Shown here piece after piece: positions 6,493 through 61,606 of a DNA stretch of 64,000 bases. The translations under genes and the position numbers were made by a program. The DNA lies in contig JAKCPI010011581.1 of NCBI GenBank assembly GCA_023213315.1, positions 1 through 64,000 on the forward strand. The letters run 5' to 3'. Source of the stretch: Euborellia annulipes (taxonomy: Eukaryota; Arthropoda; Insecta; Dermaptera; Anisolabididae). The notes under the pieces were generated by a model. The model did not search any database and was not told where the DNA came from. It saw only the letters and a list, made by a program, of their open reading frames with translations. Within the stretch, counting starts at the first letter, position 1. Every line of letters starts with the position of its first letter.

Positions 6493-6691
6493 AGATGGAT
6501 AAATATGGGCAGGAGCAGCCAATAAATAGACTCTGCATGCAGATTCAATCACCGGAGGAATCTAATGACTGAAGATGGTTCTTAAATAAAAGGAACCGAA
6601 ACGTCTCCGGTTGAATCTGCATACAGAGTATTTATTGACTGCTCCTGCCCATATTTATCCATCTATAGATCTCACAGCCACTCTTTCGAAC
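6493..6691. mobile_element. Inverted ribozyme element E1 with 9-bp duplication
   Basis: Inverted arms begin AGATGGATAAATATGGGCAG, run through GAGCAGCCAATAAAT, and reach the ribozyme. The right arm extends by a tail whose complement includes GAGTGGCTGTGAGATC. ATATAGTTT is duplicated at 6484..6492 and 6692..6700. The insertion interrupts family X, so it is younger. Arms, tail and variable-length duplication fit a Penelope-type terminal repeat pair. Confidence 0.7.
6569..6605 (+). ncRNA. Hammerhead-like ribozyme motif in E1
   Basis: The core is CTGAAGA, T, a perfect 5-bp stem II (GGTTC against GAACC, 11-nt loop), GAAAC, GTC. The sequence after GTC (TCCGG) pairs with CCGGA upstream of the core, across a 12-nt internal loop. 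That gives a stem I continuous with the element's arms. Confidence 0.7.
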
Positions 6692-6937
6692 ATATAGTTT
6701 TTATGTGTGTGTCTGTCTGTCTGTAAACAAAATATCTCAAGAACCAATAGAGCTATGAGGTTTAAATTTAAAATGGTTTGGGTGCTATTATGATGGAGGC
6801 TGCGATAAACGATAAGAGCAGAGCTTAAATCAAAGCGAGGGTCAACTCGCTAGTGGTGTTTACGTTGGAGCTGCGATAATAGTAAAGATAGTCTAATAGT
6901 TTAAACTGTATTTAATCGCTATAAATTGATATTTGTT

Positions 6938-7271
6938 CAGGGGCGTATATAGAAATTTTTTTCGGAGGGGGCCCGAACTCAAAAATTTTTCTGAGGAAAA
7001 TTTTTTTTTAAGAAACTATACTTTTTTCACACGAAATTTTTTGTGGAACATTTTTTCTATTGCGGAACCAAAGTTGTCCATCCTGCGGAAAAATTTGTTG
7101 CGCTGATGTCTGTATATCCCTATACCCAGATAGCACAGTACGTCTTATGTACGTACATAAGACGCACAATTCGTCTTATGTACGTACATAAGACGTACTG
7201 TGCTATCTGGGTATATGTATATGTGTTTGGGAAATTTCGGGGGGGGGCCCGGCCCCCTAAATACGCCCCTG
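6938..7271. mobile_element. hAT-like non-autonomous element, 8-bp duplication
   Basis: The terminal repeats read CAGGGGCGTAT and ATACGCCCCTG. TATTTGTT is duplicated exactly at 6930..6937 and 7272..7279. The interior holds a G-run and a nested palindromic MITE. An 82-codon ORF (7043..7291) merely reads through both elements. Confidence 0.8.
7125..7211. mobile_element. 87-bp near-perfect palindromic MITE, TA duplication
   Basis: It opens CCCAGATAGCACAGTACGTC and closes with the complement, flanked by TA. Each arm itself holds the palindrome CTTATGTACGTACATAAG, so the whole is a palindrome of palindromes. It is nested in the hAT-like element. Confidence 0.8.
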
Positions 7272-7439
7272 TATTTGTTTCAAGATATTAATAGAAAACG
7301 TGAATATTGATGTGGATGGAGCTGATCGGAGGTGAAGATTTGTTAAGTCTATTTGCATAATGTTATAAATGACAGAATAGTTTTTGAACATAACCTCATA
7401 TTTTCAAAATATATCTATGTCAAAATTCACTATGTTTTA

Positions 7440-7640
7440 AAATACAAGCCATTTAAGACTTTAAACGATACTCGTATGTTTAATATATCTATTGGGGGTC
7501 CAGGCATTCTTATTGAAGCCATTTGGTATCCAAATGGCTTAAACAAAATCATCGGATTGCCTGGGGTCCGAACCCGCGACTTTTGGTATACAAGGCAGGC
7601 GCTCTACCAACTACTCCAAACCCGAGGGCACCTCTTTACT
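7440..7640 (-). repeat. SINE-1 copy with good tRNA-like head
   Basis: On the minus strand the head reads GGGTTTGGAGTAGTTGGTAG, then GCGGGTTCGGACCCC, close to pol III A and B boxes. The conserved hairpin TTTGGTATCCAAA segment and CCAGGCATTC follow. It is tRNA-derived by this evidence. Confidence 0.7.
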
Positions 7641-7641
7641 C

Positions 7642-7750
7642 TTGTAGTTCTTAGGAAAGATAGGAGAAATGATTGCCATGGTAACAAAATATAAATATTT
7701 TCCCATGTTTATAAATTTTAGTGCTGTGCGACCAGTCACAGCAGATTTAT
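7642..7750 (+). repeat. Family X right-end fragment
   Basis: It contains TTTACTCTTGTA, AAGATAGGAGAAATG, AAATATTTTCCCATG and the end of the hairpin (TGTGCGACCAGTCACA). The conserved middle is missing. Confidence 0.6.
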
Positions 7751-7754
7751 TTTA

Positions 7755-8395
7755 CATTACTTCATTGATATCTATACTCAATTTATTATATATATATATA
7801 TTTTTGATTAAATTATAATTCTTTTTATAGCATATATTTATATCGAGAAAATTGCAATATGCTTGTGTAGCAGATTCTCTTATCTCTTGTTGGCGTCTGG
7901 TGGCTTATCCCTCGTAATACATGCACGAAGATGACAAAATAGGCGGGCGTAAAAAAAAAGAGTATTTTCTTTTTTTTGGAAATAACTATTTTTCTTTTAT
8001 ACTTGGTAGAAGAGAGTTAGTTTATCATCAAGTTTCGTTTGCTCAAGCTAAAGCCATTTCTATCTCCTTTTTTTTTCCTTAGGGAATATTAATTTATAAC
8101 GAAAGAAAGAGGATTATGTATATTTTTGTTTGTAATGCCTTTTGACAAGGAGTCTTTGTAGTAAAATTGCATTTTTTTATAATAGAATTTTTTTTTATTT
8201 TGAAAATCAATTTATTTTATTATTTAACAAGTCAAAGAATTCCTATTAAAAAGAGATAAAAGATCATGGACCGATGGAATTTAAAAGCAATTTTGAATGA
8301 TATCGAAAATATATTTAGAAAATCATCCAAAGAATAATATTTATTTAATTGAAAATGATTACTTATTTCCCTTCTAATGATGTTTGTAGCTTTTT
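7755..8395. other. AT-rich stretch, nothing recognised
   Basis: It holds TA repeats and poly-T runs. No element ends or credible coding sequence are visible. Confidence 0.4.
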
Positions 8396-8397
8396 TA

Positions 8398-9050
8398 CTT
8401 TCTCGTATAGTATATAAAGAGAAAGTATTGTAATTCGTCAAAAAATTTGACTTCGAGATTTTGATGAATCTCCACGTTTTAGTTCAAAAAAACAGTTTTG
8501 GCATTATGTGTTTGTGTGCGTGTCTGTGTGCCTGAACACGATTGTTTAAAAACGGAAGCAGCCAGATCGATGAAATTTGATGTATACTTCTTACACTATT
8601 ATTATTATTTGAAATTCCTATTGGGATCCCCGTTTATTTACCCGAGGTGCTTAGGTGCTCGAAGACACACACCTCAAACCCAACCTGCCTCTGGCCTTAG
8701 CCATCTACATTATTTCCTATCTCTAACTCCTCCTCCTGAGTTTGTTTTTAGTTAGTGAACTAATCCTTATTTCTGGTTACACACGGTTCCTATTATCCAA
8801 CCTCTTCTATGCCAGGGAGGATTTCCTTGTTTGAGGAGGGACTCTCTCAGCACCGGCGTGTAGCCTATTTCTTTCCAAGAATGCATCACTGAGAGGAAAC
8901 CTTTTCAACATTCCGAAGTATACACCAAATTTCATCTATCTGGCTGCTTCCGTTTTTAAGCAATCATATTTACATACACACACAGACGTAATTCCAAAAG
9001 AATATAGTATACGAGAAAGTTTTGGGGAAGTCATTCCCGAATTTTTTGAC
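8398..9050. repeat. Family X-related foldback with a shared internal unit
   Basis: Arms at about 8400..8600 and 8905..9050 are complementary (GGAAGCAGCCAGAT against ATCTGGCTGCTTCC) and end in the family X motif (TTACTTTCTCGTATA). The interior unit 8715..8875 recurs inverted at about 39970..40130 (ATCTCTAACTCCTCCTCCTG, AACTAATCCTTATTTCTGGT), which suggests it is a separate mobile unit. Confidence 0.55.
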
Positions 9051-9054
9051 TATA

Positions 9055-10520
9055 AAAATATCAATTTTATTTTCTTGTTTCCCAGTAGTTTGGTAATTGT
9101 ATATATATAAATAAATTTTTGTACAGGCTGTATTATTCTAGTATTAATTTCCTATTAAATATCATTTATACTTAAAAATTACACAAAAAAAAAACTTTGC
9201 CCCTCTAACATGCCACTATAGACACATGATTTGTAAGACGTTGTCACGTCAAAACTTGATATTTTCAGATTTTATGATAGATTTTTATTTTTACAGGGAA
9301 TAAAATTGTTAATTTAATATTAATATGAAGAAGAACTTCGAAAATCACCCTCTTTGGATAGAATGAAAAATGTTACAAGAACTTGAAGCTAGCACAAGGG
9401 AATTTTGGATGAACGATCTTGAGGAAAACCTGCAAACAATGCAAGATGGAGAATAATATTACATATATAATACAGTATATAAGGTATCATTTTTATTCTT
9501 TAAATTGCAAATTACTATAATTAAAATTCCAAAGAACCGAGTCTCTCCTCAAAGATATATTTAATAGGATTACCGACTTTGGACCAAGGAAATCCTGTCC
9601 ATAGGTACAAAATAATGAAATGCTCTTTTATAAATATTAGAAAAATTCATAAATAGCCTAATCTCGGTTTAATTGTAAAAAGTCCGAAATAACATTACTT
9701 TTTGAATTGTTTTTATATTATGAGATAAACTTGGTAAAATGTTATTATTATTAATATAATATTATATTGTGAAATAATAACCCATTGTTCCTTTTATCAA
9801 TTATAATTCACATTTTAGAGCCTTATTTATTCAAACTTTGAAATTTTTTTAGTTATAGGGAATCTTTAGGACAAAAGGAATCTCGAACTCGCAAGACACA
9901 CCCTTTGTGGTGGCGCATGTCAGGGTTTCATAGACTCAGCTCGAATGATATTCATAAATCGACTATACCAAGAGAACAAAAGAGGCTTTAAATAAATGGG
10001 CGTGTGAATGTAGCTGCAAGTTGTTAGCCTTTGCCCAGAGAGAGAGACGAAAACTTTCGTCCTCGTTTCTGTAGATTAAGGGGGACTAGAAAAGACCTAA
10101 AAGGGTGAGAATAGTTAGTTGTGTGCTTAAAGGAATAAATAAACTGCCACCAACAGCGAAAAGCATAAATAAATTAAGAGTTATGCGTAAAATAAACCAA
10201 AAGGGGTGAAATTAGAATTGAAAAAAATTATTTTTTAATTTAAAAAAAAAAATTCACGGTTGAATTTCACTATACATTTCAAATTAAAAATGAATATGAA
10301 AATGTAAAATACTCATTTAGGTTCACATTTTATCCTTTTAAAAAAGTTCTTTTGCTTATTGTATCTCCTGAACATTTTCTTTCTATCTTAATTTTTAAAT
10401 TCAATTCATTTGAAAGCAACTGAGTAGAGAGTCTTTTTATTTAATAGAAGGTTTCACTAGCCATTTCATTACATTTTTATTCTTATTACAACTTGCTTTT
10501 TAATATGAAAAATAAATATA
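9055..10520. other. AT-rich stretch with one broken open segment
   Basis: Apart from the segment at 9329..9457, nothing clear is visible. An acceptor-like TTTTTACAG lies at about 9288..9296. Confidence 0.35.
9329..9457 (+). pseudogene. Possible broken coding segment
   Basis: One frame reads 13 codons, a TGA at 9368..9370, then 28 more to TAA. The second part (LQELEASTREFWMNDLEENL) is strikingly protein-like: acidic, predicted helical, with no low complexity. An acceptor lies 32 nt upstream. It could be a decayed exon or a transposon remnant. I do not recognise the family. Confidence 0.25.
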
Positions 10521-10521
10521 T

Positions 10522-10813
10522 TAGAGTGAGTAGATCTTGTAGTAAGAAAGAGAGAAAAGATCGATTGCAACTACGCTTATTTCGTTTATTAGTCACTTCA
10601 AGCCGGAGTTTCGGTCAGATTTGGGACCATCCTCAGGGCTGAAGTGTGTCAATAAAACTCTTCAAAAAGTCATTGCGCCATTCGATTTTTGAGGAGTTTT
10701 ATTGGCACACTTCAGCCCCGAGGATGGCCACAAATCTGATCGAAAAGTCGGCTTGAAGTGACTAATAAACGAAATAAACGTTGGTGCAATCACTCTTTTC
10801 TTTCTTCGTTACT
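10522..10813. mobile_element. Inverted ribozyme element E2 with 12-bp duplication
   Basis: The arms pair over about 100 bp (TTCGTTTATTAGTCACTTCA against TGAAGTGACTAATAAACGAA). AAATAAATATAT is repeated at 10510..10521 and 10814..10825. The left end has a degraded tail (GAGTGAGTAGAT). A family-like ribozyme motif lies in each arm. Confidence 0.6.
10605..10636 (-). ncRNA. Degenerate hammerhead-like motif in E2
   Basis: On the minus strand it reads CTGAGGA, a stem-like GGTCCC...GGACC-type region, then GAAAC, but the cleavage triplet is altered (TCC). The copy in the other arm (about 10722..10757) has CCGAGGA and GAAAAGTC. Both look inactive. Confidence 0.4.
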
Positions 10814-10865
10814 AAATAAATATATAATCAAGTTCTTGTTTAAATTATGGGTTTTTATTTATAAA

Positions 10866-13890: not shown

Positions 13891-13894
13891 TAAA

Positions 13895-15105: not shown

Positions 15106-15109
15106 TAGG

Positions 15110-17770: not shown

Positions 17771-17783
17771 AATATAAATTATA

Positions 17784-18053
17784 TTGTAATATTGGGGTTG
17801 CGAGGATGCAGCCAAAGAGATTTTGGACAAATGAAAATACCAATTCCAATAAGAGACGTTTCGGCGAAAATTTTATTTTGCCAGTCGTTCAGGAATTTTC
17901 ATGTTTATATTTAATATGGACATGTGTCATTTGGCCAAGTCGGTTTTTTAAAAATTCAATTTCGAGGGCAATGGCTCAGAGAGTTTCGAAGTAAATGATG
18001 GCTGCATCCTTGCAACCCAACATTACAATATCTACAGCCACTAACTCAACCAC
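17784..18053. mobile_element. Inverted ribozyme element E3 with 11-bp duplication
   Basis: TATAAATTATA is duplicated at 17773..17783 and 18054..18064. The arms begin TTGTAAT and include GGATGCAGCCA. The right side has a tail whose complement reads GTTAGTGGCTGTAGATA. A ribozyme-like motif with an altered core (CTGAACGA) and GAAAC GTC is at 17855..17892 on the minus strand; its stem GGC/GCC and AAAA/TTTT is kept. Confidence 0.7.
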
Positions 18054-18088
18054 TATAAATTATAATTTCTATCTTTTTCTTGTTTTAG

Positions 18089-18180: not shown

Positions 18181-18234
18181 ATGACAAATGGATTTCAAAC
18201 CTCATCAAAACTCGCATAAAATGTAAATATAATA

Positions 18235-18436
18235 ACCAATGAAGTACGTGGCTGTTGATTTATATACAAGAAAGGAAGCAGTAGCAGCCAAAAATTAAAG
18301 CCTCCGATTTTATTACAATTAACGAGACGTTTCGAGAAAACTTCATTTTCATGATGAGAAAATAAAGTTTTCTCGAAACGTCTCGTTAATTGTAATAAAA
18401 TCGGAGGCTTTAATTTTTGGCTGCTTCCTTCCTTGT
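18235..18436. mobile_element. Inverted ribozyme element E4 with 14-bp duplication
   Basis: ATGTAAATATAATA is repeated at 18221..18234 and 18437..18450. A 30-nt left tail contains TACGTGGCTGTTGATTT. The arms (TACAAG, AGGAAGCAG, GCAGCCAAAAATTAAAGCC) pair over about 80 bp. The second core, 18350..18382 on the plus strand, reads CATGATGA, stem GAGAAAA/TTTTCTC, GAAAC, GTC, with one inserted base in CTGATGA. Confidence 0.75.
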
Positions 18437-18594
18437 ATGTAAATATAATACTTTATTCTTCAAATATTAGAAACTTTTAATTTTCTAATGTTAACGAAGT
18501 GGTTTGTAATTTGAGCTTATTTTTAAATCCGTTTTTATACTTACCTAAACCCATATAAAAACAATTAAAATACGGAAATCTTATAAACCAGGAT

Positions 18595-19089: not shown

Positions 19090-20108
19090 TTTAAAATACC
19101 CCCTACCCTCCATTTGGCATTTCCCTGATAGATGTTTTTTGCAATCTTCAATTCTATTTTAGATTATTAAAAATAAATCAAATGTTTATCAATGATAAAA
19201 TGCTCTTACTTAAAAAAAGTAGATATTTATACATTTATTTTGTATTTATTCTGTTTTTTCTTACCTTTGAAGAAACCCTAAGTGAAAAAACAACATCATC
19301 AATATTTTATTCTAATGGAAATTTAATATACTACTTTTTTTTCTGTAGTTGACGAGTAAAAAAGATTTTGCGTTAGGTAGTATTCTCTACGATTGCCATA
19401 TGCTTGTCCGCCCGTCTGTCTGTTTGTCTCCAAGGAATCGAAGAAAAAGACGAAAGAAGAAGGAAAAAAGAAGAGTAAAAGATTTATCGCTGCGATTCGA
19501 TTGCTATTGGAACGTAAAAGACTACTACCCACTATTAAGGGGAACACTGACGGACGTTTGAAATTTCCTCTCTAATGGAAATTCAACTCCCAGCCAATCA
19601 CAAATTAATCTCTCTTTTATATATATTACTTTAAATTCGAGACATGTTCTATTTAATGTTAATGTAAAAAGGGGTCATAAAAAAAGAAGGATTTTCTATT
19701 TTATTAAAAACTAAATTTGAAAAAGTGAAAAAAAGTTCAGATTTATTATTCATGACTTTACGAAATAAGAAAAAATATTAAAAGTGATTAAATTACATAT
19801 TTCATTGAAATGAAATTTTATTATTTCATAAAATTCATAAAACTTTTTTTTTTTTTTTTTTGTATTTCATAACAATAGAAACAGAAAAGTCCTATAGTAA
19901 AATAGCAGTATTGGTCTTTATGATTGTATAGTATCAATATATTTTTTATTCAATTTTCACAACTTCAAGAGTATGTACAAGTACAGTCTCTCCCTTACGT
20001 TTTCACATGTGATTAATTTATTGTTTTTATTTTTTTTACATATATAAAAAAATTTTTAAAGGTTTTCTTGGTTGACACCTTAGAAAATTATAAAAACAAA
20101 TAAGGTCA
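19090..20108. other. AT-rich stretch with one open segment
   Basis: From 19349 there are 70 codons to TGA at 19559..19561, directly after an acceptor (CTTTTTTTTCTGTAG). The product is Lys/Arg-rich in the middle and ends CYWNVKDYYPLLRGTLTDV. I recognise no family; it may be chance or an exon. The rest is AT-rich. Confidence 0.25.
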
Positions 20109-20110
20109 AT

Positions 20111-20374
20111 TTAAAAAGAAGATAAAAAAATAAGAATTCAGTGGGATATTTTGAAATGATTGCATATACATAAACAAGTTGTGTGTTCTGTACATCTTTT
20201 CCAAGCATCACCATATCCGTTGTATTGATGCAAAAAAAATTTTTGTGATGGATGCATAAATACAACGGATGCACTGATGCTCTGAATAGATGTACAGAAG
20301 ACACAACTTGTTTATGTATATGCAATCATTTCAAAATATCCCACTGAATTCTTATTTTTTTATCTTCTTTTCAA
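20111..20374. mobile_element. Foldback MITE with arms over 100 bp
   Basis: The arms AAGATAAAAAAATAAGAATT...ACAAGTTGTGT and their complement are almost identical. The spacer contains a smaller inverted pair (CATCCGTTGTA-type). It has no coding capacity and its superfamily is unknown. Confidence 0.7.
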
Positions 20375-20459
20375 AATGGCTAATTACTGGTCCCTGGCCA
20401 TTACTGAGGTGCTTACCTTAAATAACATTTAAAAAAACGCATGAATAGGACCAGGGCCA

Positions 20460-20939: not shown

Positions 20940-21177
20940 TATAAATCTAGTCTTGTTTTCTCAACTACATTTTTTGTCTCAAATCTAAAGCCTAGCTTGA
21001 GCCTATGACTTTATTTAATTTATCCCTTCTGTATCTGTCTGAAGACCTATATACAGTGTTATTACAAATGATTGAAGCGATTTCATAGCTCGACAATAAC
21101 TTTATTATTTGACATATTGTCACAGGGCTTTGCACACACATAGAAAAACCCAAAAAGTTTTTTTTTTTGGCATTTAC

Positions 21178-21300
21178 AAATGTTCGATATGTGCCTCTCT
21201 AGTGATTCTGCAGACATCAAGCCGATAATCAAATTCGTCCCACACTCTGCCCAGCATGTCCCTTTCAATTGTTCAAAAGCACTGTTGATGCGAGCTCGCA
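21178..21300 (-). pseudogene. Transposase C-terminal remnant, left arm
   Basis: One minus frame includes RVWDEFDYRLDVCRITREA and stops two codons after IEH. This is the familiar C-terminus of a group of Tc1/mariner-superfamily transposases. A frameshift separates it from the upstream LRARINSAFE part. All catalytic regions are missing. Confidence 0.55.
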
Positions 21301-21366
21301 GTTCTGGCTAGTTTCTTGGTAAAGGAGGTGTAAATACAGGTTGGTGCCCCAATCCAGAAACGTGGC

Positions 21367-21490
21367 AGAACTGCGAGCTCGCATCAACAGTGCTTTTGAA
21401 TACATTGAAAGGGACATGCTGCGCCGAGTGTAAGACGAAGTTTATTATCGGCTTGATGTCTTCAGAATCACTAGAGTGGCACAAAAAAAA
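21367..21490 (+). pseudogene. Transposase C-terminal remnant, right arm
   Basis: It is the inverted counterpart of the left arm, reading ELRARINSAFE then IERDMLRRV, a stop in place of the conserved Trp, and YYRLDVFRITRVA. It differs from the other arm by several substitutions, so the two have diverged. Confidence 0.55.
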
Positions 21491-22369
21491 ATCTTTTGAG
21501 TTTTTGTGTGTGCAAATCCTTGTGACAATATGTCAAATAATCAAATAATTGTAGAGCTATGAAATCGGTTCACTCATTTGTAGTAATTTGTAATAACGGA
21601 TATTTTTCTTTATTATTTCGATGAAATCAGAGAGAAAATTTTGGAATTCTTAAATAAATTGTAAAAATCTAAACTATTGTGTGAGAAAGTTCAAAAGCTA
21701 TTTTTGTTATTCTCCCCCATCCCCCTCTACTACTCACTCTCTTAGAATACAGGACTGTAGACAGTGGGGACAATTTCCGTAGCACAAAAAATTTGGTTAT
21801 TATAAAAAGAGTTCATAATTTTTTTTCAATTATTTCTAACGTTTATCAGATCAGAAACCTCTTTCATTTTCTTATACAATATATACTTTTTTTTATTAGA
21901 TAGTAGATAAAGCAGGAGTGATAAAAAGTTGTTAAAAAGTTTCTTACACGTTGCTCTAACTCCTACAATTTTAACCTTGGAAAACATTTAGCTCAAACAA
22001 TCACACTCAATGGCTTATGGAAAATGAAAAGTTACAAATGAACTAGGTTAAATCATTTTAGCATATTTTTATTTAAATAATTTAAAGATAACACGAATTT
22101 TATTGATTTTTGTTTTGAAATAAATGATTCAATTAAAGAAGAATTCTTAAACTTAGCACAGAATTAAACATTGTGCAGAACAACGAACTGTTTAAGGTGT
22201 TCAGAGACATATTTTCAAACTATGAAAACTGCGTTGTCAGCACATTTATCTTTTGATTGTGGTCCTGTCCAAACGGGTGCTCGGCTCGTTATTCTGTTCG
22301 TCGTCGGGATTTAGGAATCAATGAAACATTAAAATAAAATTTCCAGTTTTTTAATAATGATTCATTAAC

Positions 22370-26464: not shown

Positions 26465-26863
26465 CATCAGACCCTTACATTAACAAATACATGCAGTTCT
26501 CTACCCAGAGAATGTTGATGTGGACGAGATCCAGAGGTCTTGAGCAAACACACGGTGCTCTGGATATCCCAAGGGACTTTTTGGTTCACCAACAAATAAA
26601 CATACTCATAAAATTTGTTAAATACTCCATGACTTATCAAGTCCGAATCGTGGCATTCATTGAAGATAAATGAGACCTTCAGCGCCAGAACGGCCTAACC
26701 CACATTTTTCACTTTTTGGTTTTATGCCTTAACATTATCCTCATAACTTATATTTTAAACTACCTTTTTAAACTTCTCGTTTTTGAGTAGTGAGGATATG
26801 CAAGGCAGCCAAAAGCAATAAAGAAAATTATATTTATCTTTAGCTTTATTTCAAACGTTTGTC

Positions 26864-26895
26864 GACCTTTCGGCCGATATTCAGGCCTTCATCAC
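26864..26895 (-). ncRNA. Degenerate hammerhead-like motif in E5 left arm
   Basis: On the minus strand it reads GTGATGA, A, stem GGCC...GGCC, GAAAG, GTC. C3 and the first stem III pair are changed, so it is probably inactive. Confidence 0.45.
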
Positions 26896-26991
26896 TATTG
26901 AACCGACGAATCATCCGACGAATGTTCGCTCAAACGCATTGCCAGGAGTTGCCAAGAGCATCTATGAGCTCGAGGCAAACAGCCCTTTGTC

Positions 26992-27023
26992 CTGACGAAG
27001 GCTGGAATATCGGCCGAAACGTT
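26992..27023 (+). ncRNA. Hammerhead-like ribozyme with complete stem I
   Basis: The core is CTGACGA, A, a 6-bp stem II (GGCTGG, AATA loop, TCGGCC), GAAAC, GTT. TTTGTC before the core pairs perfectly with GACAAA after the triplet, giving a 6-bp stem I. All core positions are canonical. Only stem III is minimal (2 bp, no loop), the feature that makes this class act as dimers. Confidence 0.75.
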
Positions 27024-27164
27024 GACAAACGTATGAAATAAAGCTAAAGATAAATATAATTTTCTTTATTGCTTTTGGCTGCCTTGGATATCCTCACTAC
27101 TCAATATATATTTAGCCACTCCTCCTGAAACTTCTCGTTTTTATTATATAGATTTCAGCACATG

Positions 27165-40130: not shown

Positions 40131-40144
40131 GTAACTTCACTGGA

Positions 40145-40179
40145 GACTTTTCGGGAAAACTTTATTTTCCCATTATCAG
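40145..40179 (-). ncRNA. Hammerhead-like motif, near canonical
   Basis: On the minus strand it reads CTGATAA, T, a perfect 7-bp stem II (GGGAAAA, TAAAG loop, TTTTCCC), GAAAA, GTC. G8 and the C of GAAAC are altered. Confidence 0.5.
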
Positions 40180-40296
40180 TCTTTCAAATTGTATATATCC
40201 CGTAATTGTTAAAAGGGCACAATATATTTATTATGTATTATATTTATGGGTGAGTTATTCATTCATGAATATATACAATATATAAAATTTGAAAAA

Positions 40297-40331
40297 CTAA
40301 TGATGGGAAAATAAAGTTTTCCCGAAACGTC
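40297..40331 (+). ncRNA. Hammerhead-like motif, opposite arm
   Basis: It reads CTAATGA (G5 changed), T, the same 7-bp stem II, GAAAC, GTC. Comparing the two arms and E4 suggests an ancestral CTGATGA core. Confidence 0.5.
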
Positions 40332-40939
40332 TCGTTAATTGTCAAAAATTGGAGGCTTCAACTTTAATTGTTATCCATATTATTGTAGTAGTGGTGGAGG
40401 AGTGGGCTGATAATTTTCATAAAATATAATTAATATAGAAGAATAATAAGCTAGTATTAAATATCTACCTAATGTTAATGTTACCTCAAAAGATCATTAG
40501 CATGTCTGCATGTCTATACTTCTATGAGTTGTTTTCTAGACCCCTTTCTTTTAATATTATCGGTAATAGGTCTGCTCTTTGACTTTTTTAATCTAAGCCG
40601 AAATATAAAAATAAATTTGGCACTAGAGTGGAATTTTTGAGTTTCAAAATTAAGCCATTCTGACAAACTTGAAATCTCGTGAGTCCCTCCGAATTATCCA
40701 GAGTTTCTCTCCCTAACTCCACTCGCATTAAAACAAGTTTTATGATTTTATGTTTTTCGAAAATTAAAGACATAAAATTTGAGGAAAAACAAACAAACGA
40801 CATATATTAACTAGATATTAAAACTTTTTAATGAGAGGACAATGAGGGATTCTAAACAAAGAATATTTTAAAAATACAAAAACTTTCTTACAAAAATAAT
40901 AGATAGTGTGTCAATTTTATCAAATTTTTTTTTCCTTAG

Positions 40940-44019: not shown

Positions 44020-45622
44020 TTTTTTTTGATCATATAAAATTTCTACTTCTTTCGAAGCCAGGACCAGATTATTTAATATAGTATTAACGTTTATTAATTG
44101 GAAAAATTACTCTCTTTGAGAAATTTCGTTTGGTTTTAATAAAATTTGATGAAATTTTTCATATATCATCTATGTTATCTTCTTTTTTTTGTATATATAA
44201 AATTTCTACCTGTTTCGAAGCTGAGACCAAATTATTTAATATAGTATTAACGTTAATTAATTGGAAAAATTACTTTCTTAGAAGATTTTCGCTCGGTTTT
44301 AATAAAATTTGCTAAAATTTTTCATATGTCAAAGTCATCAGCTTTTTTTTGATTATATAAAATTTCTACTTCTTTCGAAGCCCAGACCAGATTATTTAAA
44401 ATAGTATAAACGTTTATTAATTGGGAAAAATACCCTCTTTGGATTATTTCGTTTGGTTTTAATAAAATTTGCTAAAATTTTTCATATATCTATGTTATCT
44501 TCTTTTTTTTTGTATATGTAAATTTCTACCTGTTTCGAGGCTGAGATCAAACTATTTAATATAGTATTAACGTTTATTAATTGGAAAAATTACTTTCTTA
44601 GAAGATTTTCGCTCGGTTTTAATAAAATTTGCTAAAATTTTTCATATGTCAAAGTCATCAGCTTTTTTTTTGATTATATAAAATTTCTACTTCTTTCGAA
44701 GCCCAGACCAGATTATTTAAAATAGTATAAACGTTTATTAATTGGGAAAAATACCCTCTTTGGATTATTTCGTTTGGTTTTAATAAATATTTGCTAAAAT
44801 TTTTCATATATCTATGTTATCTTCTTTTTTTTTGTATATATAAAATTTCTACCTGTTTCGAGGCTGAGATCAAATTATTTAATATAGTATTAACGTTTAT
44901 TAATTGGAAAAATTACTTTCTTAGAAGATTTTCGCTAGGTTTTAATAAAATTTGCTAAAATTTTTCATATGTCAATGTCATCAGCTTTTTTTTTTATTAT
45001 ATAAAATTTCTACTTCTTTCGAAGCCCAGACCAGATTATTTAAAATAGTATAAACGTTTATTAATTGGGAAAAATACCCTCTTTGAATTATTTCGTTTGG
45101 TTTCAATAAAATTTGATAAAATTGTTCATATGTCAATGAGATCAGCTTTTTTTTTGATAATATAAAATTTCTACTTCTTTCGAAGCTGAGACCAAATTAT
45201 TTAATATAGTATTAACGTTTATTAATTGGAAAAATTACTCACTTTGAAGATTTTCGCTTGGTTTTAATAAAATTTGCTAAAATTTTTCATATGTCAACGT
45301 CATCAGCTTTTTTTGATTATATAAAATTTCTACTTCTTTCGAAGCCCAGACCAGATTATTTAAAATAGTATAAACGTTTATTAATTGGGAAAAATACCCT
45401 CTTTGGGTTATTTCATTTGCTTTTAATAAAATTTGATAAAATTTTTCCTATGTCTATGTTATCACCTTTTTTTGTATATATAAAATTTCTGCTTCTTTAG
45501 AAGCCGAGACCAGATTATTTAATATAGAATTAACGTTTATTAATTGGAAAAATTACTCTCTATGAAGATTTCGCTTGGTTTTAATAAAATTTGAAAAAAA
45601 TTTTCATATGTCAATGTCATCA
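44020..45622 (+). repeat. Satellite array, 160-bp monomers in dimers
   Basis: Ten monomers start at about 44030, 44195, 44355, 44515, 44675, 44838, 44998, 45158, 45318 and 45476. Two subtypes alternate. A has GAAGCCCAGACCAGATTATT and ATACCCTCTTTGG. B has GCTGAGACCAAATTATT and AGAAGATTTTCGCT. The real period is therefore a dimer of about 322 bp. It ends at a hAT-like element. No coding frame is conserved across monomers. Confidence 0.85.
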
Positions 45623-45623
45623 G

Positions 45624-48010: not shown

Positions 48011-48069
48011 CCTAACTTAAATATAAAATGGAGGGAAAGTGGTGTAGGTTTTACGTGATACTTATTTAT

Positions 48070-48235
48070 AAGTAATATTATTTAGTATATGTGAGGTTTC
48101 ACTAAGTTATAAATGAAAGAAGTATTTGAGTTTATAACTCGATATACAGATATATATATATATATATATATAAACTCAAATACTTCTTTCATTTATAACT
48201 TAGTGAAACCTCACATATACTAAATAATTTTACTT
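48070..48235. mobile_element. Foldback MITE
   Basis: Arms of about 65 bp (AGTATATGTGAGGTTTCACT, TTATAAATGAAAGAAGTATT and complements) surround a TA-repeat spacer. It is inserted in family X. Confidence 0.7.
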
Positions 48236-48419
48236 TTAAATATAAAATTTCAATCTCGAAGCTCAATTACTTCATGCTTAAAATCGTTTTACAGGCACAC
48301 AGACAGACCAATTTGCGGGATCCACTTATTTGGACTCAGGGAACCTCAAAATCTCGACATCGAATTTTGGACATGATAGCAATACTTTGACTATAGGTAA
48401 GAGAAAAGGTAAAAAAAAA

Positions 48420-51035: not shown

Positions 51036-51040
51036 ATATA

Positions 51041-51445
51041 CGAGGTGTGTTCAAAAAGAAACCCAACTTTTGTTGTATCAGCTTTATTGCTTATTATATA
51101 ACTTTTTAAGCACTGTTCCTTTCAAAATAGTCCCCTCTACTGGCCATACACCGTTCCCATCGTTTCTTCCATTTTTAGAACTCCTCCTGGAACACATTTT
51201 GTGGGATTGCGCGCAGACTTTTCGTCGCATTGTCCTGTATCTCCTCTATGGTTTGGAAACGACCACAATGCGACGAGAAACCTGCGCGCCGTCCCACAAA
51301 ATGGGTTTCAGGAGGCGTTCCAAAAACGGGAACGGTGTATTGCCAGTAGAGGGGACTATTTTGAAGGAAACAGTGCTTAAAAAGTTGTACGATAAGCAAT
51401 AAAGCTGATACAGCAAAAGTTCGGTTTCTTTTTGAACATACCTCG
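51041..51445. mobile_element. Mariner-derived foldback element
   Basis: Ends CGAGGTGTGTTCAAAAAG and CTTTTTGAACATACCTCG are flanked by TA. Arms of about 190 bp each hold a mariner terminal repeat plus the 3' end of the transposase gene. It is a head-to-head deletion product, like 21056..21600 but from a different lineage. Confidence 0.75.
51267..51380 (+). pseudogene. Mariner transposase C-terminal fragment
   Basis: The frame reads 37 codons to TAA and includes GFQEAFQKRERCIASRGDYF, the standard end of mariner transposases (Arg-Cys-Ile-Ala then Gly-Asp-Tyr-Phe). The complementary arm on the left (minus strand, about 51100..51215) carries a diverged copy. Confidence 0.7.
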
Positions 51446-51754
51446 TATATATATGCCACCTTTAGTCTGAAATTATGTTAATAATAATATCTGCATTCTT
51501 CTCAAAACAATTCTTACTTCTTCCAATCATTATCATTTTCTTAAAAATAATAATGATTGTTTATAAATATATTATTTGGAAAAGCTTAGTAAAAATTAAA
51601 TATATAAATAATTTATCAACTTTATTTCGCTCTTTGATTTAAAAAAATGTTCATACATATTTATGTTGGAACAAAACGCACACCTTAACAGTAAACCTTT
51701 ATTTTATAAAAATACGTATCTTTCTCTAACTTTTTTTTTTTTTTTTGTTTTTAG

Positions 51755-52587: not shown

Positions 52588-52830
52588 TTCAATTTAATAT
52601 TTATTAATTCAAATAGCCGACAAAAAAAGTGCCACCGGAATTCGAACCACGGATCCACCGATTTGCACTCGGTGTGCCCTGCCACTGGACCATAGCACGG
52701 TTATTTGAATTCAGTGAGACCTCTAAATTAGTTTCCAGGAGTATTGGACCCAAATTCAAAGCCACAAATTTTCCGTCAGCCAGACTCAATCTAGATGAAC
52801 ATAATGAGAATATCTCTCATTACTGTATAT
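52588..52830 (-). repeat. SINE-2 copy with tRNA-like part (Cys-like anticodon)
   Basis: On the minus strand about 52634..52706 resembles a tRNA: A box TGGTCCAGTGG, anticodon arm ACCGA/TCGGT with GCA in the loop, B box GGTTCGAATTCC. TATTTGAATT flanks it on both sides. An upstream part (AAACTAATTTAGAGGTCTCA) is shared with 52985..53218. Confidence 0.6.
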
Positions 52831-52984: not shown

Positions 52985-53218
52985 CACAAATTAGAGATAT
53001 TCTCATTACGTCCATCTAGATTGCATGGTGCTGGTTGAGGGAGAGATTTGTGCCTTCGAATTTGGGTCCGCTTTCCCATAAAACTAATTTAGCGGTCTCA
53101 GTGAATTCAAATAACCGAATGTCGTGCTGCGGTGGTAGGGCATTATTCTGAGTACAAATTATTGAATCCGTGGTTGTACCCATCTTTTGTCGACTATTTG
53201 AATTAATAAATATTAAAA
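52985..53218 (+). repeat. SINE-2 copy, inverted partner
   Basis: It has the same order as 52588..52830: AAACTAATTTAGCGGTCTCA, GAATTCAAATA, a decayed tRNA-like part (GCGGTGGTAGGGCA, GAGTACAAAT, GTGGTTGTACCC), TATTTGAATTAATAAATATT. The two form an inverted pair around AT-rich DNA. Confidence 0.55.
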
Positions 53219-53332
53219 TGTATGATTTTTGGTTATAAGATTGAGTGGCTGTAGATATAGTTGATACAGGACCAAGGGAGTTGGCAGCCAATAAGTGAGC
53301 CTCTATATTAAAGAAAAACTCTCAAGTGTTGA

Positions 53333-53368
53333 GACGTTTCGGCTTTATTCTGCTAATGCCATCATCAG
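53333..53368 (-). ncRNA. Hammerhead-like ribozyme, canonical core
   Basis: On the minus strand it reads CTGATGA, T, stem II GGC(ATT)...(AAT AAA)GCC, GAAAC, GTC. All conserved core bases are present. Stem I adjacent to the core is only GA/TC. Confidence 0.7.
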
Positions 53369-53517
53369 TCTTTGCTTTAATAGCAAACTGTTACTTAAGC
53401 GAATACACACGTATTGAATGACTGGAAGCATACAAATAGAAATTATTTATATATCACATAATGTATATAAAGAAATATTTAATATAACAACTCTATACAC
53501 TTATACTCTCTAATTGA

Positions 53518-53553
53518 CTGATGATGGCATTAGCAGAATAAAGCCGAAACGTC
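53518..53553 (+). ncRNA. Hammerhead-like ribozyme, canonical core
   Basis: It is identical to the core in the opposite arm: CTGATGA, T, stem II closed by GGC/GCC, GAAAC, GTC. TTGA before the core pairs with TCAA after the triplet (4-bp stem I). Both strands therefore encode an intact motif. Confidence 0.72.
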
Positions 53554-53699
53554 TCAACACTTGAGAGTTTTTCTTTAATATAGAGGCTCTCTTATTGGCT
53601 GCCAACTCCCTTGGTCCTGTATCATGTATGATTTTTCTTCACGGTTCTGAACGTGATTATATATAATTTTATCTTAAATATTATATATATAATTTCTTA

Positions 53700-54560: not shown

Positions 54561-54565
54561 AAAAG

Positions 54566-54937: not shown

Positions 54938-54969
<32 letters not shown>

Positions 54970-55945: not shown

Positions 55946-57232
55946 CCAGGGGTGTGCCTATGAAACCGACCTTTAGAGGTGCGCACATAAACACATATTT
56001 TATAAAAGTGAAAAAAGATATTTTATTCAAAGTAATTTCCTTCGTTAGCAATACAATTCTCCCATCTTTCAGGGAGCTTATGAATCCCTCTCCAAAAAAA
56101 CTCGTCTTCTTTCGAGGCAAACCATTCATCGAGCCATTTGGCAACATTTTCGTAATCTGTGAACTGCTGCTCCCTCAAAGCGTGACCCAAAGATGAAAAC
56201 AAGTGATAGTCCGTTGGGGCCAAGTCTGGGGAATAAGCCGCATGTGTGAGAATTTCCCACCCAAACGTTTCAATGGTTTCTTTGGTTCGTTTTGCAGCGT
56301 GTGACGGAGCGTTGTCGTGCAACAAGATGACTTTGTGCTGCCTTTTTTGATATTCTGGTCTTCTTTGGCGTATAGCCTGGTTCAATTTCACCATTTGCTG
56401 TTGATAACGTTCCGTATTGACAGTTTCGCCAGGTTTCAGGAGTTCGTAATAGATAATTCCCTTCTGATCCCACCAAACACAAAGCATTGTCTTTCGTCCA
56501 TATCGATTTGGTCTTGGAGTCGATGTTGATGGCTCACCTGGAGATACCCATGATGCTCGACGCTTAGGATTTTCAAAAAAGATCCATTTTTCATCTCCAG
56601 TAACAATTCGATGAAGAAATGACTTTCTTTTGTATCTGGCGAGCAGCATCTCACAAGTGGTTTTTCGGTTCTCTTGCTGCCTTTCGTTCAGTTCATGTGG
56701 AACCCATTTCCCGATCTTCTGGATCTTCCCCATAGCTTTCAGACGCTTGGAAATAGTTTCCCGAGTCACGTTTAACTGTTCTGCCAATTGTTGTTGTGTT
56801 TGAGTTGAATCTTCATTCAACAATTCTTGCAAATCGGTGTCATCAAACTTTTTGGGCGGTCGGCCACGTGCTTCGTTCTTAATGTCAAAATCTCCCCTCT
56901 TGAATTTTTTGAACCATTCTTTGCACTGTGTTTCACCAAGAGCATAGTCGCCAAAAGCTTCTACAAGCATTCGATGAGACTCCGCGGCCGTTTTTTTCAA
57001 ATGATAGCAAAAAATCAACGCCGTCCGCAAATCACTTTGTTGAGGAACAAAGGTTGACATGTTTGACGTGGTGAAAAAAAATGTTGGGAGTATGAAATTG
57101 GAATTTTTTTGAGTTCGAAACTTAGAACAGACATAAACCAAACAAACAAACTCAATAACTAGACTGTATAGTACCAAAACTGGCCGCCAGGATTTTTCAA
57201 AGTAAAAGGCGGTTTCATAGGCACACCCCTGG
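55946..57232 (-). mobile_element. Complete mariner transposon
   Basis: It is 1287 bp, close to the usual size of mariner elements. Inverted repeats of about 27 bp start CCAGGGGTGTGCCTATGAAA at both ends (one mismatch), flanked by TA at 55944..55945 and 57233..57234. The single ORF inside is uninterrupted. This is the only element in the window that looks potentially autonomous. Confidence 0.9.
56023..57060 (-). CDS. Mariner transposase, apparently intact
   Basis: A 345-residue protein that would cut and paste the surrounding element at TA sites. The N-terminal half holds the two helix-turn-helix DNA-binding regions (about residues 1-110; PPKKFDD linker at 68-74). WVPHEL is at 119-124. The catalytic triad is D156 (TGDEKW), D249 (LLHDN) and D284 (SPDLAPTDYHLF), giving the mariner DD34D spacing. 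It ends CIANEGNYFE. The frame is open 39 codons further upstream, but the Met at 57060 gives the standard length and follows a normal mariner leader, so I chose it. There is no frameshift or lost catalytic residue. Activity is inferred, not shown. Confidence 0.93.
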   Translation of the reverse strand: MSTFVPQQSDLRTALIFCYHLKKTAAESHRMLVEAFGDYALGETQCKEWFKKFKRGDFDIKNEARGRPPKKFDDTDLQELLNEDSTQTQQQLAEQLNVTRETISKRLKAMGKIQKIGKWVPHELNERQQENRKTTCEMLLARYKRKSFLHRIVTGDEKWIFFENPKRRASWVSPGEPSTSTPRPNRYGRKTMLCVWWDQKGIIYYELLKPGETVNTERYQQQMVKLNQAIRQRRPEYQKRQHKVILLHDNAPSHAAKRTKETIETFGWEILTHAAYSPDLAPTDYHLFSSLGHALREQQFTDYENVAKWLDEWFASKEDEFFWRGIHKLPERWENCIANEGNYFE

Positions 57233-57409
57233 TAAAATACATCGATTCTGATGAATCGAATATTTCATTATATAAGATGAAGAATTAGAGAATCGGAATC
57301 AGTATTAAAAAAAAAATCCATTTTTTTGAACTTTTTTAGTAAATTGGCTCTCCTGAAAATTTAGCCCAGTGAAGATTTGGTACCATTTCTTGTGGACGGT
57401 CACATTTAT

Positions 57410-58330: not shown

Positions 58331-58339
58331 GCCCTCTTC

Positions 58340-58640
58340 TTTTTTTAAACCACTGCGTAGCTCCTCCCACCGCTCCATGTCGTATGCCTGGAAAGCTGAC
58401 TCTCAGAGCAACTAACTGCCTCTCGAATTTCCAAACCAATTTGTCGATTTTGTGTTCCCATATTCAAGAAATTTGATCATAATTAATTTCCAAGAGATTC
58501 AAATTATTACAACGTTACCCCCTGGTCCATGTTCTATATATGTAATTAATTTCAAATAGATTCATTGAAAACTGTGGCTTTCTATAGAAAATAAACATAC
58601 ATAAGTTTTTCCATTTCATATACAGGGTATATATATACAG
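58340..58640 (-). repeat. Helitron-like fragment, inverted
   Basis: On the minus strand it has AAATGGAAAAA, CTATAGAAAGCCACAG, TGAATCTATTTGAAATTAAT and CTTGAATATGGGAACAC, parallel to 41736..41939 and 49355..49560. The GC hairpin end is not preserved. Confidence 0.4.
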
Positions 58641-58644
58641 TATA

Positions 58645-59330
58645 TGTTGAGATAATTTTTCTCGGGTTATATATATATATATATAATTACAATGGCTTTG
58701 TTGCTTTCTATCTTGAAACCATCGATGTACATTATATATATATAATTTTATTTATAAATATAGAAGTCACTCATAGAAATTTCTCTTGCGTTTTTCTTGT
58801 TTGCCCTTTGATCATTTTTCATATGAATTGTGTTGTTCTTCTTTAATACCAATCTATATTATACAACGCCCCAATCGGAAATGGACACGAATCAACGTTG
58901 CAGTTAGTTAATTCCCTAAAGCAAAACTTGTCTGGTTGTGGATGTTCAACTCGTCCGGTCACGCACAGACCGTTAGAAAAGCAACCTGGACTAGTCGGTG
59001 AGAGACTTTCGTGTCCTACATATCAAATACATATCTCTCTCTCCCTTCTCTTAAGGGTTTCAATCCCTTTGAACGACTGCCTCTCTTATTATTCGTCTTT
59101 CTTCTCTACCTTTTCAAATAAGAAAAAAAAAAAAACGAGCAAGAAATTGTGATTTTTCTCACTTTTTAAAAATTAAATTTCATTTAACGAATTCTTCTTT
59201 TTTTTCCCTTTAAAATCGCGATTATAAGCGTAGTTTTTTGAATAAATCATCTGTGAATGTTTTTTTTTTTTCTAAATATTGATTTCACTATTCCTTGACC
59301 TTTCTCTATTTTTATATAATATCAAAAACT
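58645..59330. other. AT-rich stretch, nothing recognised
   Basis: An 84-codon ORF at 58898..59152 has a mixed composition (includes NSLKQNLSGCGCSTRPVTH) and ends in a Lys run. I recognise no domain. Confidence 0.3.
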
Positions 59331-59360
59331 TGCATTTTAGTCAATATTAGATTTTATAAA

Positions 59361-59514
59361 AATGTCTAATCATGATAAAATTATAATAAAAATAGAGCAA
59401 ATTCATGATGTGATATATTATTTAAAAATTGAAAAATATTTAGAGAGAAGGGAATTTAGTTGGTTGGAAGAATCGTGTAATGAAATTTTTCATATGGATC
59501 GATCAGACATATAA
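59361..59514 (+). CDS. Small ORF or terminal exon
   Basis: 50 codons plus stop from ATG, with 7 further open codons upstream directly after an acceptor-like CTTGCATTTTAG. The peptide (includes KIEQIHDVIYYLKIEKYLER and FSWLEESCNEIFHMDR) alternates charged and hydrophobic residues as in amphipathic helices. No family is recognised. Confidence 0.3.
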
Positions 59515-59613
59515 GGAGATTATGCATCTGAAGTTCAATAACTCGGGTTCGAATCAAGTCGACCGCAAAAGGAAATTCATCAGCAGGCAGAAGCGACTAA
59601 ATTTAACTGAATA

Positions 59614-59725
59614 AAGGAGATATGGAAGCAGAGGCAGCCAAAAATATTTTATTTTCAAAATATTTTTGGCTGCCTCTGCTTCCATATCTCCTTTAATCAA
59701 CATACACAGCCACTACTTACATCTC
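59614..59725. mobile_element. Inverted element E7, arms only, with 14-bp duplication
   Basis: AATTTAACTGAATA lies at 59600..59613 and 59726..59739. The arms start AAGGAGATATGGAAGCAGAG and include GGCAGCCAAAAATATTTT, joined by 6 nt. The right side has a 31-nt tail whose complement reads AGTAGTGGCTGTGTATG. It is only 112 bp and has no ribozyme, so arms and tail alone were enough to be inserted. Confidence 0.75.
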
Positions 59726-59789
59726 AATTTAACTGAATATACGGAAAAACTAAAAGAGATAAATATTATTATATAATTTCCCCAACCAT

Positions 59790-60290
59790 TATTAAATTTA
59801 ATTTATTTTGAAAATAGTTCAATGATGTCGAATCATGCTCAATTGTGTTTTGCCTTCTCGGTGTGCGTTGACCCATAGAAAAGCATTGAAAAAAACAGTT
59901 TTAAGCATGATTTGTCAAAAATGTTTTGTCCGAAAACGTTTTTGCTCAATTGGTGTCTGTTCAGCCTTATTTTTTTTTTCAGATTTTTCTCATAAAAGTT
60001 GCTTCAAAATAAGTCATTGGAATTGATGTTCTGCGATAATTCCGCCTCTTAATTATTTACTGGACTAGTTGGCAGCTGCTCTTGTCTAGGTGAAGAGAAT
60101 CAGCCGCAGAGTCTGTTGCAGTTAAGCAAGGGTCAAAACAAAGTCTGCTGAAAGGTGGTCTTCGAGGAACAAGAGGGTTAAACAGCCGCCTCAATCCATT
60201 TTTATATCTCTCAAAACATCCGAGTGGAAATGTATCGAATCAAAACATCAGCAGCGGAATGACTTGAATAAAAAATACTGGACAAGCTAA
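59790..60290 (+). repeat. 511-bp tandem duplication, first unit
   Basis: It repeats at 60301..60802 with almost no differences. The unit has an open frame of 63 codons (59835..60026; includes CVLPSRCALTHRKALKK) and a less AT-rich second half (ATCAGCCGCAGAGTCTGTTG, GGTGGTCTTCGAGGAACAAG). I checked it by eye against U1-U6, U11, U12 and 5S RNAs and saw no match. Confidence 0.85.
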
Positions 60291-60300
60291 ATATTATTAT

Positions 60301-60802
60301 TATTAAATTTAATTTATTTTGAAAATAGTTCAATGATGTCGAATCATGCTCAATTGTGTTTTGCCTTCTCGGTGTGCGTTGACCCATAGAAAAGCATTGA
60401 AAAAAACAGTTTTAAGCATGATTTGTCAAAAATGTTTTGTCCGAAAACGTTTTTGCTCAATTGGTGTCTGTTCAGCCTTATTTTTTTTTTCAGATTTTTC
60501 TCATAAAAGTTGCTTCAAAATAAGTCATTGGAATTGATGTTCTGCGATAATTCCGCCTCTTAATTATTTACTGGACTAGTTGGCAGCTGCTCTTGTCTAG
60601 GTGAAGAGAATCAGCCGCAGAGTCTGTTGCAGTTAAGCAAGGGTCAAAACAAAGTCTGCTGAAAGGTGGTCTTCGAGGAACAAGAGGGTTAAACAGCCGC
60701 CTCAATCCATTTTTATATCTCTCAAAACATCCGAGTGGAAATGTATCGAATCAAAACATCAGCAGCGGAATGACTTGAATAAAAAAATACTGGACAAGCT
60801 AA
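60301..60802 (+). repeat. 511-bp tandem duplication, second unit
   Basis: The second unit has one extra A in the AAAAAA run near its end. The 63-codon ORF (60346..60537) is identical to the first, so the duplication is recent or the two are kept alike. Confidence 0.85.
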
Positions 60803-60839
60803 TCTTAATAAATTAAAATGCATTATCAAAGAGAACGGA

Positions 60840-61350
60840 TTTATTTTAAGGTCCCCAATCCAAAAAAGTGGTTTTCGCAATATAGTCTATCTGTTTGTGT
60901 TCAATTTAAACGAAGGAATTGAGCTAGAAGGTTGAAATTTTATATTTAAATTAGGCACCCTCCTGGAGCCTGAAAATAAGCTTTTGATCAAAATCGGCCA
61001 AAAAGTACTGGTACTTTACTGATGTAGTTTTTCAGTTTTTTCCGATTTTCTCAAAATTCACTCCAACGATTTTGATTAAAATTCATAAATCAATTATTTT
61101 TTAGATGCTGTTTAAAATGTATATTCTCATTTTGCCATTCAAATCTTGTGAAGCACACTTTAATGGTATCAGAATATTAATATTTTCCCATCTTTATAAA
61201 TTTTATATCTTGAATTATAATATATCGGCGGAAAATAAATATATGTTAACACAAAAAATCTGGTGTGACAAGCACAGAAGACAAATTTCGATTACCGAAG
61301 ATAAGAGAAGAGAAAATTGTGTGCTGTGCGATCATTCACACCAGATTTTT
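60840..61350 (+). repeat. Family X copy lacking the left palindrome
   Basis: It starts in AAGGTCCCCAATCCAAAAAA, continues with GAATTGAGCTAGAAGGTTGA, AAAGTACTGGTACTTTACTG and the terminal hairpin (ATCTGGTGTGACAAGCACAG ... GATCATTCACACCAGATTT). Confidence 0.7.
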
Positions 61351-61440
61351 TTGTGAGGGGTGAGGTGTGAGCATAAAACTGAGATATTACAGTATATATA
61401 TATATATATATCAAGTTTACCAACTATCTAAGTATCAAGG

Positions 61441-61606
61441 AAGGGTTGCAAAAGCAGAGCCTGGCAGCCAGCAGGGAAGCAGCCTGCTGGCAGCCAAATT
61501 TTTTCCTTTAAATGTTTTAGTAGGCCGACGTTTCGGTCTCGATGGCCAGACTGTATTCCTGCAACCCTTCCTTGATACAATTCAAAAGCCACAACTACAA
61601 AACTAA
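61441..61606. mobile_element. Inverted ribozyme element E8 with 10-bp duplication
   Basis: CAACTATCTA lies at 61431..61440 and 61607..61616 (CAACTATCTARGTAT, 14 of 15, if extended). The arms contain TATCAAGGAAGGGTTGCA. A GGCAGCC palindrome (GCCAGCAGGGAAGCAGCCTG region) is internal. The right tail's complement reads GTAGTTGTGGCTTTTGAATT. A degraded core with GAAAC GTC is on the minus strand from 61527. Confidence 0.65.

Follow-up and report, generated by a model that had tools for sequence, protein, structure and literature searches.

A 64,000 nt stretch of the genome of the dermapteran Euborellia annulipes (assembly GCA_023213315.1, contig JAKCPI010011581.1, positions 1 to 64,000 of the forward strand; hereafter, the window) carries eight compact elements, E1 to E8 (Table 1), each of which has two inverted arms, flanking perfect direct repeats and a short tail on one side only. 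An initial interpretation based on the letters of the window (the sequence-only reading) had described these elements, and all eight proved to be real, with direct repeats of 9, 12, 11, 14, 15, 13, 14 and 10 bp as reported; seven of the reported element starts were also correct, while the eighth element begins at 61431 rather than 61441. The tail word GTGGCT, which had been assigned to seven of the eight elements, was found as AGCCAC (other strand) in 7/8, and the GCAGCC motif noticed in most arms is likewise present in 7/8; E2 (10522) lacks both. When identical search zones were put at random in the window (2,000 placements), an equal or longer repeat was obtained for E1 to E8, in order, in 4.9, 1.7, 0.65, 0.15, 1.0, 0.15, 0.05 and 3.6% of placements. 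The eight repeats are jointly far beyond chance, although those of 9 and 10 bp carry little weight when taken one at a time.

Tail and arm represent two halves of one structure, as UGGCUG in the arm is complementary to CAGCCA in the one-sided tail, with approximately 30 nt between them, and this hairpin sits downstream of a hammerhead core of the type found in Penelope-like elements (PLEs). A unit is composed, in order, of the hammerhead core, about 40 nt, a 5' stem TGGCTG (or TAGCTG, TTGCTG), a loop of about 30 nt, a 3' stem CAGCCA (or CAGCTA, CAGCAA), a further 10-15 nt or so and the element end; the unit at the opposite end is an inverted copy whose start is displaced inwards by about 30 nt and lies within the loop. 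Genome-wide pattern searches, which cover 903 Mb and are given as strand + strand, yielded 3,602 + 3,560 = 7,162 matches to the exact hairpin TGGCTGCN{15,45}ACAGCCAC (TGGCTGC N15-45 ACAGCCAC), counted without requiring a ribozyme in front, as compared to 8 + 2 = 10 matches to the reversed pattern. This search was used in place of the direct-repeat search that had been proposed with the sequence-only reading. A looser form, GAAACGTC N25-55 TNNCTG N15-45 CAGNNA, was found 10,531 + 10,688 = 21,219 times vs 59 + 66 = 125 times reversed.

Behind the ribozyme, TAGCTG was found with CAGCTA (4,226 vs 1), and a third stem state, TTGCTG with CAGCAA, was found at loci L132 and L144. E2 matches loci L010 and L011, whose stem is TAGCTG/CAGCTA. 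Mispaired TAGCTG with CAGCCA (A.C mismatch) occurs 240 times genome-wide and TGGCTG with CAGCTA (G.U wobble) 538 times, a figure that overstates mispairing since many of these matches come from one family where CAGCTA precedes ACAGCCAC. Among 20 loci from the loose search, 17 had a readable tail (L130, L138 and L140 were dropped as truncated copies or for unreadable tails), and the two free bases of the stem, read by eye, were complementary in 16 of these, the exception being L131; for L141, the TGGCTG downstream of the pattern-matched word was used. Shuffled pairing of the 17 loci gave a mean of 6.6 complementary pairs and reached 16 in 0/100,000 shuffles, which is not to be read as a probability because the loci are not all independent families. 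These pairings indicate that the stem covaries and that the conserved feature is an RNA hairpin, not a DNA word.

The hammerhead core reads CTGANGA, stem II, GAAAC, GTC in the unit direction. The ribozyme pattern CTGATGAN{10,40}GAAACGTC had 6,511 + 6,483 = 12,994 exact matches vs 1 + 0 reversed and, in its strict form, marks a predicted minimal PLE-type hammerhead near the unit start in four of the eight window elements (E1, E2, E5 and E6). Hammerhead pairs within 1 kb were divergent in 17/17 cases and tandem in none, as counted by eye among the matches listed. An Rfam scan of the window did not report a hammerhead even at E up to 1; its matches there were mostly miRNA models on hairpins, below gathering scores, with a tRNA model at 52627-52699 as the sole exception. 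Ribozyme-cut RNA was considered as the template and set aside, as inner cDNA ends were spread from -160 to +40 nt (the -160 bound being the limit of the references) and showed no clear pile-up at the predicted cleavage site. By eye, E1, both arms of L034 and L125 end exactly at this predicted site and, in an element set inspected later, also by eye, none did; a ribozyme-cut template is a lead only.

Element anatomy was initially read at 67 tail places (5 in the window and 62 in tail-chosen loci), which gave 35 distinct elements that combine a target-site duplication (TSD) of 9 bp or more with an inverted arm inside the hairpin. In a wider analysis that took in 17 additional loci (86 tail-selected rows) and looked for the arm as far as the end of the element, the number of distinct elements with an inverted arm and a TSD of 9 bp or more rose to 47. 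Among these rows, the place C253:6271 was counted twice (L171, L172) and the palindromic L180 place in both directions, and elements with an identical duplication (L088 with L052, L123 with L122) were counted once. The small elements are 97-647 bp long and have no coding part. Their TSDs range from 9 to 17 bp, with 12-15 bp in 40/47 elements, and have an A+T content of 88% (first 35 elements). Relative to the end of CAGCCAC, the tailless end lies 17 nt upstream and the tailed end 12 nt downstream (medians, 47 elements); the tailed side is longer by a median of 30 nt (first 35 elements), and the spacer from ribozyme to TGGCTG has a median of 40 nt (47 rows in which GAAAC[AG]T[CT] was found).

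One tail per element appears to be the rule. In the 86-row run, 46/47 elements were one-tailed and none was clearly two-tailed; the one flagged element, L052, has extra bases on the left without the tail word. The first run also gave 0/35 two-tailed elements, but sought the arm only inside the hairpin, so that two-tailed elements were hard to detect. In loci selected by ribozyme and read by eye (44 loci, 39 distinct elements), 17 elements could be resolved, of which 16 were one-tailed, one was tailless (L012) and none was two-tailed. If the start at each of the two ends were chosen independently, at most half of the insertions would be one-tailed, and two-tailed elements would be expected once one-tailed elements are common.

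Mutual similarity among the eight window elements is limited to four matches of 18-35 nt each; the claim that their arms differ completely therefore holds inside the window, where there are short likenesses only. In the wider sample, BLAST clustering of arm sequence (the 60 nt preceding the hairpin; 86 rows) gave 17 linked groups at E 1e-3, the largest with 31/86 rows, and 28 groups at E 1e-6. Since the arms link into groups, "unrelated" is too strong a word for families that have the appearance of a diverged radiation, with some groups diverged beyond recognition. Copies of one family vary both in length and in the point where the two halves meet. The ATCCTCTTTCC family, for example, has copies of 97, 176, 273, 325, 510, 521 and 539 bp (L088, L094, L095, L097, L092, L093 and L091, respectively), and E7 retains the hairpin ends only. 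Such variable junctions favour an origin from two cDNAs joined head to head.

Resident Penelope reverse transcriptases whose own ends carry the tail, for which the sequence-only reading had suggested a search, were found (L068 and L156/L167). L068 has an open frame of 822 codons that encodes RVT_1 and GIY-YIG domains, and upstream of its start the arrangement of the small elements recurs: a hammerhead core, then TGGCTG, then CAGCCAC. In addition, loop ATGTCTT of this family may pair with AAGACAT past the tail (L068, 838-903), a candidate pseudoknot noticed by eye. Two insertions of the L156/L167 family (C12, C1015) have a common 3' end that consists of GAAACGTC, TGGCTG...CCAGCCA and about 15 nt, after which they diverge. 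The L068 and L156 proteins are mutually closest (49%) among seven resident proteins compared, and the identity of each to the remaining five is 27-37%. With the L156 protein as query, at least 78 places were found (78 scored of 5,265 candidates), and two PLE matches, C238 and C240 (54% and 56% identity to L156), have a TAGCTG/CAGCTA hairpin 348 bp downstream of the coding match in the same orientation (C238:8737, C240:4918). Both stem states are thus found in autonomous members of one clade. The earlier proposal that one reverse transcriptase moves many unrelated families is supported in that a resident PLE has the same end, and is better reworded as one clade with several families of its own, which would move small-element families that are diverged rather than unrelated.

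Among four open reading frames (ORFs) analyzed, RVT_1 was detected by E-value in all four (L067 below the Pfam cut-off) and GIY-YIG in two (L066, L068). L068 has 220 homologues, which among the 120 matches listed carry mostly RVT_1, PF28514 and PF26215; the best named protein homologues are from the ladybird Coccinella septempunctata (36% and 31%). A comparable stem occupies the corresponding position in two other PLE clades, namely GGACTG/CAGTCC (L065, L070) and GCTGG/CCAGC (L066); L065 is predicted to fold in this way and L070 has the same bases with a different predicted fold. L065 is also a PLE with inverted and direct pieces of pseudo-long terminal repeats (pLTRs; 676-905 and 3875-4250), and a small element of the E7 family abuts its right pLTR piece. 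GIY-YIG PLEs are numerous in the genome: a search for GIY-YIG gave at least 118 matches (150 of 710 candidates scored), a few of which may be other proteins. The best match, L071 (C21118), has a frame that by eye resembles bacterial UvrC, so that this contig may represent bacterial sequence in the assembly.

Coordinates of the window elements and of the other features in the window are given in Table 1. The four other long inverted repeats listed there probably represent other element types, since neither the hammerhead core nor the TGGCTG/CAGCCAC tail was reported in them.

Table 1. Inverted elements E1 to E8 and other features of the window, with TSD sequences and positions.
Feature	Position	Strand	TSD	Details
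E1	6493-6691	+	ATATAGTTT (6484-6492, 6692-6700)	hammerhead core 6569 (+); tail right, CAGCCAC 6675-6681
E2	10522-10813	-	AAATAAATATAT (10510-10521, 10814-10825)	hammerhead core 10636 (-); tail side left, no GTGGCT
E3	17784-18053	+	TATAAATTATA (17773-17783, 18054-18064)	hairpin TGGCTG 17999, CAGCCAC 18035-18041; tail right
E4	18235-18436	-	ATGTAAATATAATA (18221-18234, 18437-18450)	tail left, CAGCCAC (- strand) 18248-18254
E5	26785-27127	+	AAACTTCTCGTTTTT (26770-26784, 27128-27142)	hammerhead core 26992 (+); tail right, AGCCAC 27114-27119
E6	53231-53623	-	ATGTATGATTTTT (53218-53230, 53624-53636)	divergent hammerhead pair, core starts 53368 (-) and 53518 (+); tail left, CAGCCAC (- strand) 53245-53251
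E7	59614-59725	+	AATTTAACTGAATA (59600-59613, 59726-59739)	two short arms only; hairpin TGGCTG 59667, CAGCCAC 59707-59713; no ribozyme core
E8	61431-61606	+	CAACTATCTA (61421-61430, 61607-61616)	AGCCAC 61587-61592; tail right
Decayed further copy, E4 family	40143-40366		none read	89% match to L114; no tail read
Lone tail hairpin	1353-1446	-	none read	TGGCTG start 1380 (- strand); 93% match to L138 over 41 nt
Further PLE-type hammerhead cores or decayed family copies	418 (+), 14387 (-), 2354-2480			
413-codon open frame	56023-57264	-		Mos1/mariner-type transposase domains
One motif, five times	44341-45623	-		spacing about 320 bp, suggests a tandem array
Long near-perfect hairpin	7112-7224			several miRNA precursor models matched below cut-offs
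Other long inverted repeats	20107-20378, 21059-21586, 48063-48242, 51036-51450			

Taken together, it is very probable that the small elements are non-autonomous derivatives of endonuclease-bearing PLEs, each a pair of inverted pLTR-like units, which would be mobilised in trans via the covarying hairpin as an initiation signal. Inverted pLTR-like units, a variable TSD length and a tail at one of the inverted units, as used to recognise PLE pLTRs, were all found here. In the mechanism that we propose, a reverse transcriptase/endonuclease of the L068/L156 clade would bind the hairpin on the RNA and nick AT-rich DNA twice, some 13-14 bp apart. One cDNA would be primed at each nick, one of them starting 3' of the hairpin, which would leave the tail, and the other starting in the loop. 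The two cDNAs would then extend to variable upstream points and be joined head to head. This would account for the inverted arms, for the tail on one side only and for duplications that are mostly 12-15 bp long. The same route would be open to any RNA in which the hairpin is correctly placed, so that many families would share an end. Divergent ribozyme pairs, variable junctions and an element such as E7, with ends only, would be expected if two cDNAs were made from one RNA, one beginning at each nick, and each ended at a different position. A broader proposal, to which we give an even chance, is that the covarying CUG-loop-CAG hairpin serves as the portable recognition and initiation signal of the whole PLE clade, co-evolving with its reverse transcriptase, acting in trans for non-coding families and forcing a coupled insertion of one outer and one inner cDNA, with the one-sided tail as its footprint.

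Several observations weigh against the PLE-derivative interpretation or its one-tail component. We infer both the joining of two cDNAs and mobilisation in trans, the latter from the end held in common with autonomous PLEs, and a search for a PLE coding match in the window did not find one. Moreover, 39/86 tail rows did not give a distinct element with a clean TSD and arm (due to decay, truncation, nesting, duplicates or script limits), and the shifted-window control was not empty, with 20/228 as compared to 36/67 real places by the same script. Automatic reading of 14 ribozyme-selected loci (L074-L087) gave seven one-tailed, three tailless and no two-tailed elements as well as four without TSD; the TSDs of 9-10 bp behind the tailless calls (L074, L077 and L086) may be wrong, and L074 and L086, when read by eye, each have a single tail, with duplications of 8 and 7 bp, respectively. 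The hairpin seems to be present on both sides of L070, which belongs to another PLE clade, so that the one-tail rule may be clade-specific, and a comparable hairpin was not found in L067. Finally, in the in vitro reactions described in the portion of PMC11167929 that was available, no difference in start site was seen between the strands, whereas each insertion here has one of each.

Long inverted arms with direct repeats, as well as the mariner-type transposase frame in the window, would fit foldback or miniature inverted-repeat DNA transposons, whose terminal inverted repeats are moved cut-and-paste by a transposase. Such elements would hardly be expected, however, to have unequal ends with one side about 30 nt longer, TSDs without a fixed length (9-17 bp), outward-pointing hammerhead cores with a covarying RNA hairpin, a junction and length that differ among copies of the same family, and an end common to autonomous PLEs; this explanation is extremely unlikely. 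Metazoan retrozymes, which are small tandem non-LTR (long terminal repeat) elements that move via hammerhead-made circular RNA, are also small, non-coding and hammerhead-bearing, PLEs are present in the same genome, and PMC7229834 suggests that PLEs mobilise metazoan retrozymes. We nevertheless consider a retrozyme origin improbable, as close ribozyme pairs were all divergent rather than tandem among the matches listed, the core form CTGANGA(T/A)GG...CCGAAACGT is by eye unlike the canonical type I described in PMC7229834, and element ends do not clearly pile up at the cleavage site.

A further alternative is that these are PLE derivatives copied from palindromic master transcripts, with a single cDNA started from the tail and the inverted form inherited. 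This would explain one tail without coupling two starts, and some copies (E4, L176) are nearly symmetric in their arms; the variety of lengths and junctions within the ATCCTCTTTCC family, though, would need many masters, and this alternative is unlikely.

Inverted pLTRs, one-sided tails and ribozymes are already known in Penelope elements. Features that look new are the covarying hairpin common to autonomous and small elements, the restriction to one tail and the number of copies. A literature search of titles and abstract starts did not find a covarying PLE initiation hairpin common to autonomous and small elements; Craig et al. 2021 and Cervera and de la Pena 2014 lay outside this search. 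These elements bear on the questions of how PLEs insert and why their ends are inverted, carry hammerheads and have a tail on one side only. With their clean duplications, the thousands of small insertions record, across a whole genome, where synthesis started, how far apart the nicks were and how the products were joined, and the covarying stem points to an RNA structure that may be relevant to a reaction that works in vitro for one PLE. If true, the interpretation would also explain how a single clade of reverse transcriptases can populate a genome with small ribozyme-bearing elements.

One of the closest known systems, as far as described in the available text of PMC11167929, is the Poseidon PLE of Anolis carolinensis (PAc), a lizard element whose protein cuts and extends both strands; synthesis starts internally at two adjacent stem-loop sites, with the tail corresponding to the sequence between them. 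PAc resembles the elements described here in its internal start after the hammerhead, the extension of both strands and its AT-rich targets, and differs in that its start sites lie inside the ORF at an AC-rich stem-loop, whereas here the hairpin precedes the L068 ORF and is common to non-coding families. Metazoan retrozymes, as outlined in PMC7229834, are similarly small non-autonomous hammerhead elements that occur beside PLEs, but are tandem with canonical type I ribozymes, whereas the elements here are head-to-head with a PLE-type core. In the bdelloid rotifer Adineta vaga, PLEs with inverted pLTRs, one of them tailed, have been reported (PMC3846280), and unrelated DNA between the pLTRs of Pen2a_Av and others is carried in trans, as proposed here; the available part of that study does not report evidence that its two PLE types mobilise one another. 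The Euborellia elements differ from these rotifer PLEs in that they are 97-647 bp long, non-coding and present in thousands, with a tail that forms a covarying stem with the arm.

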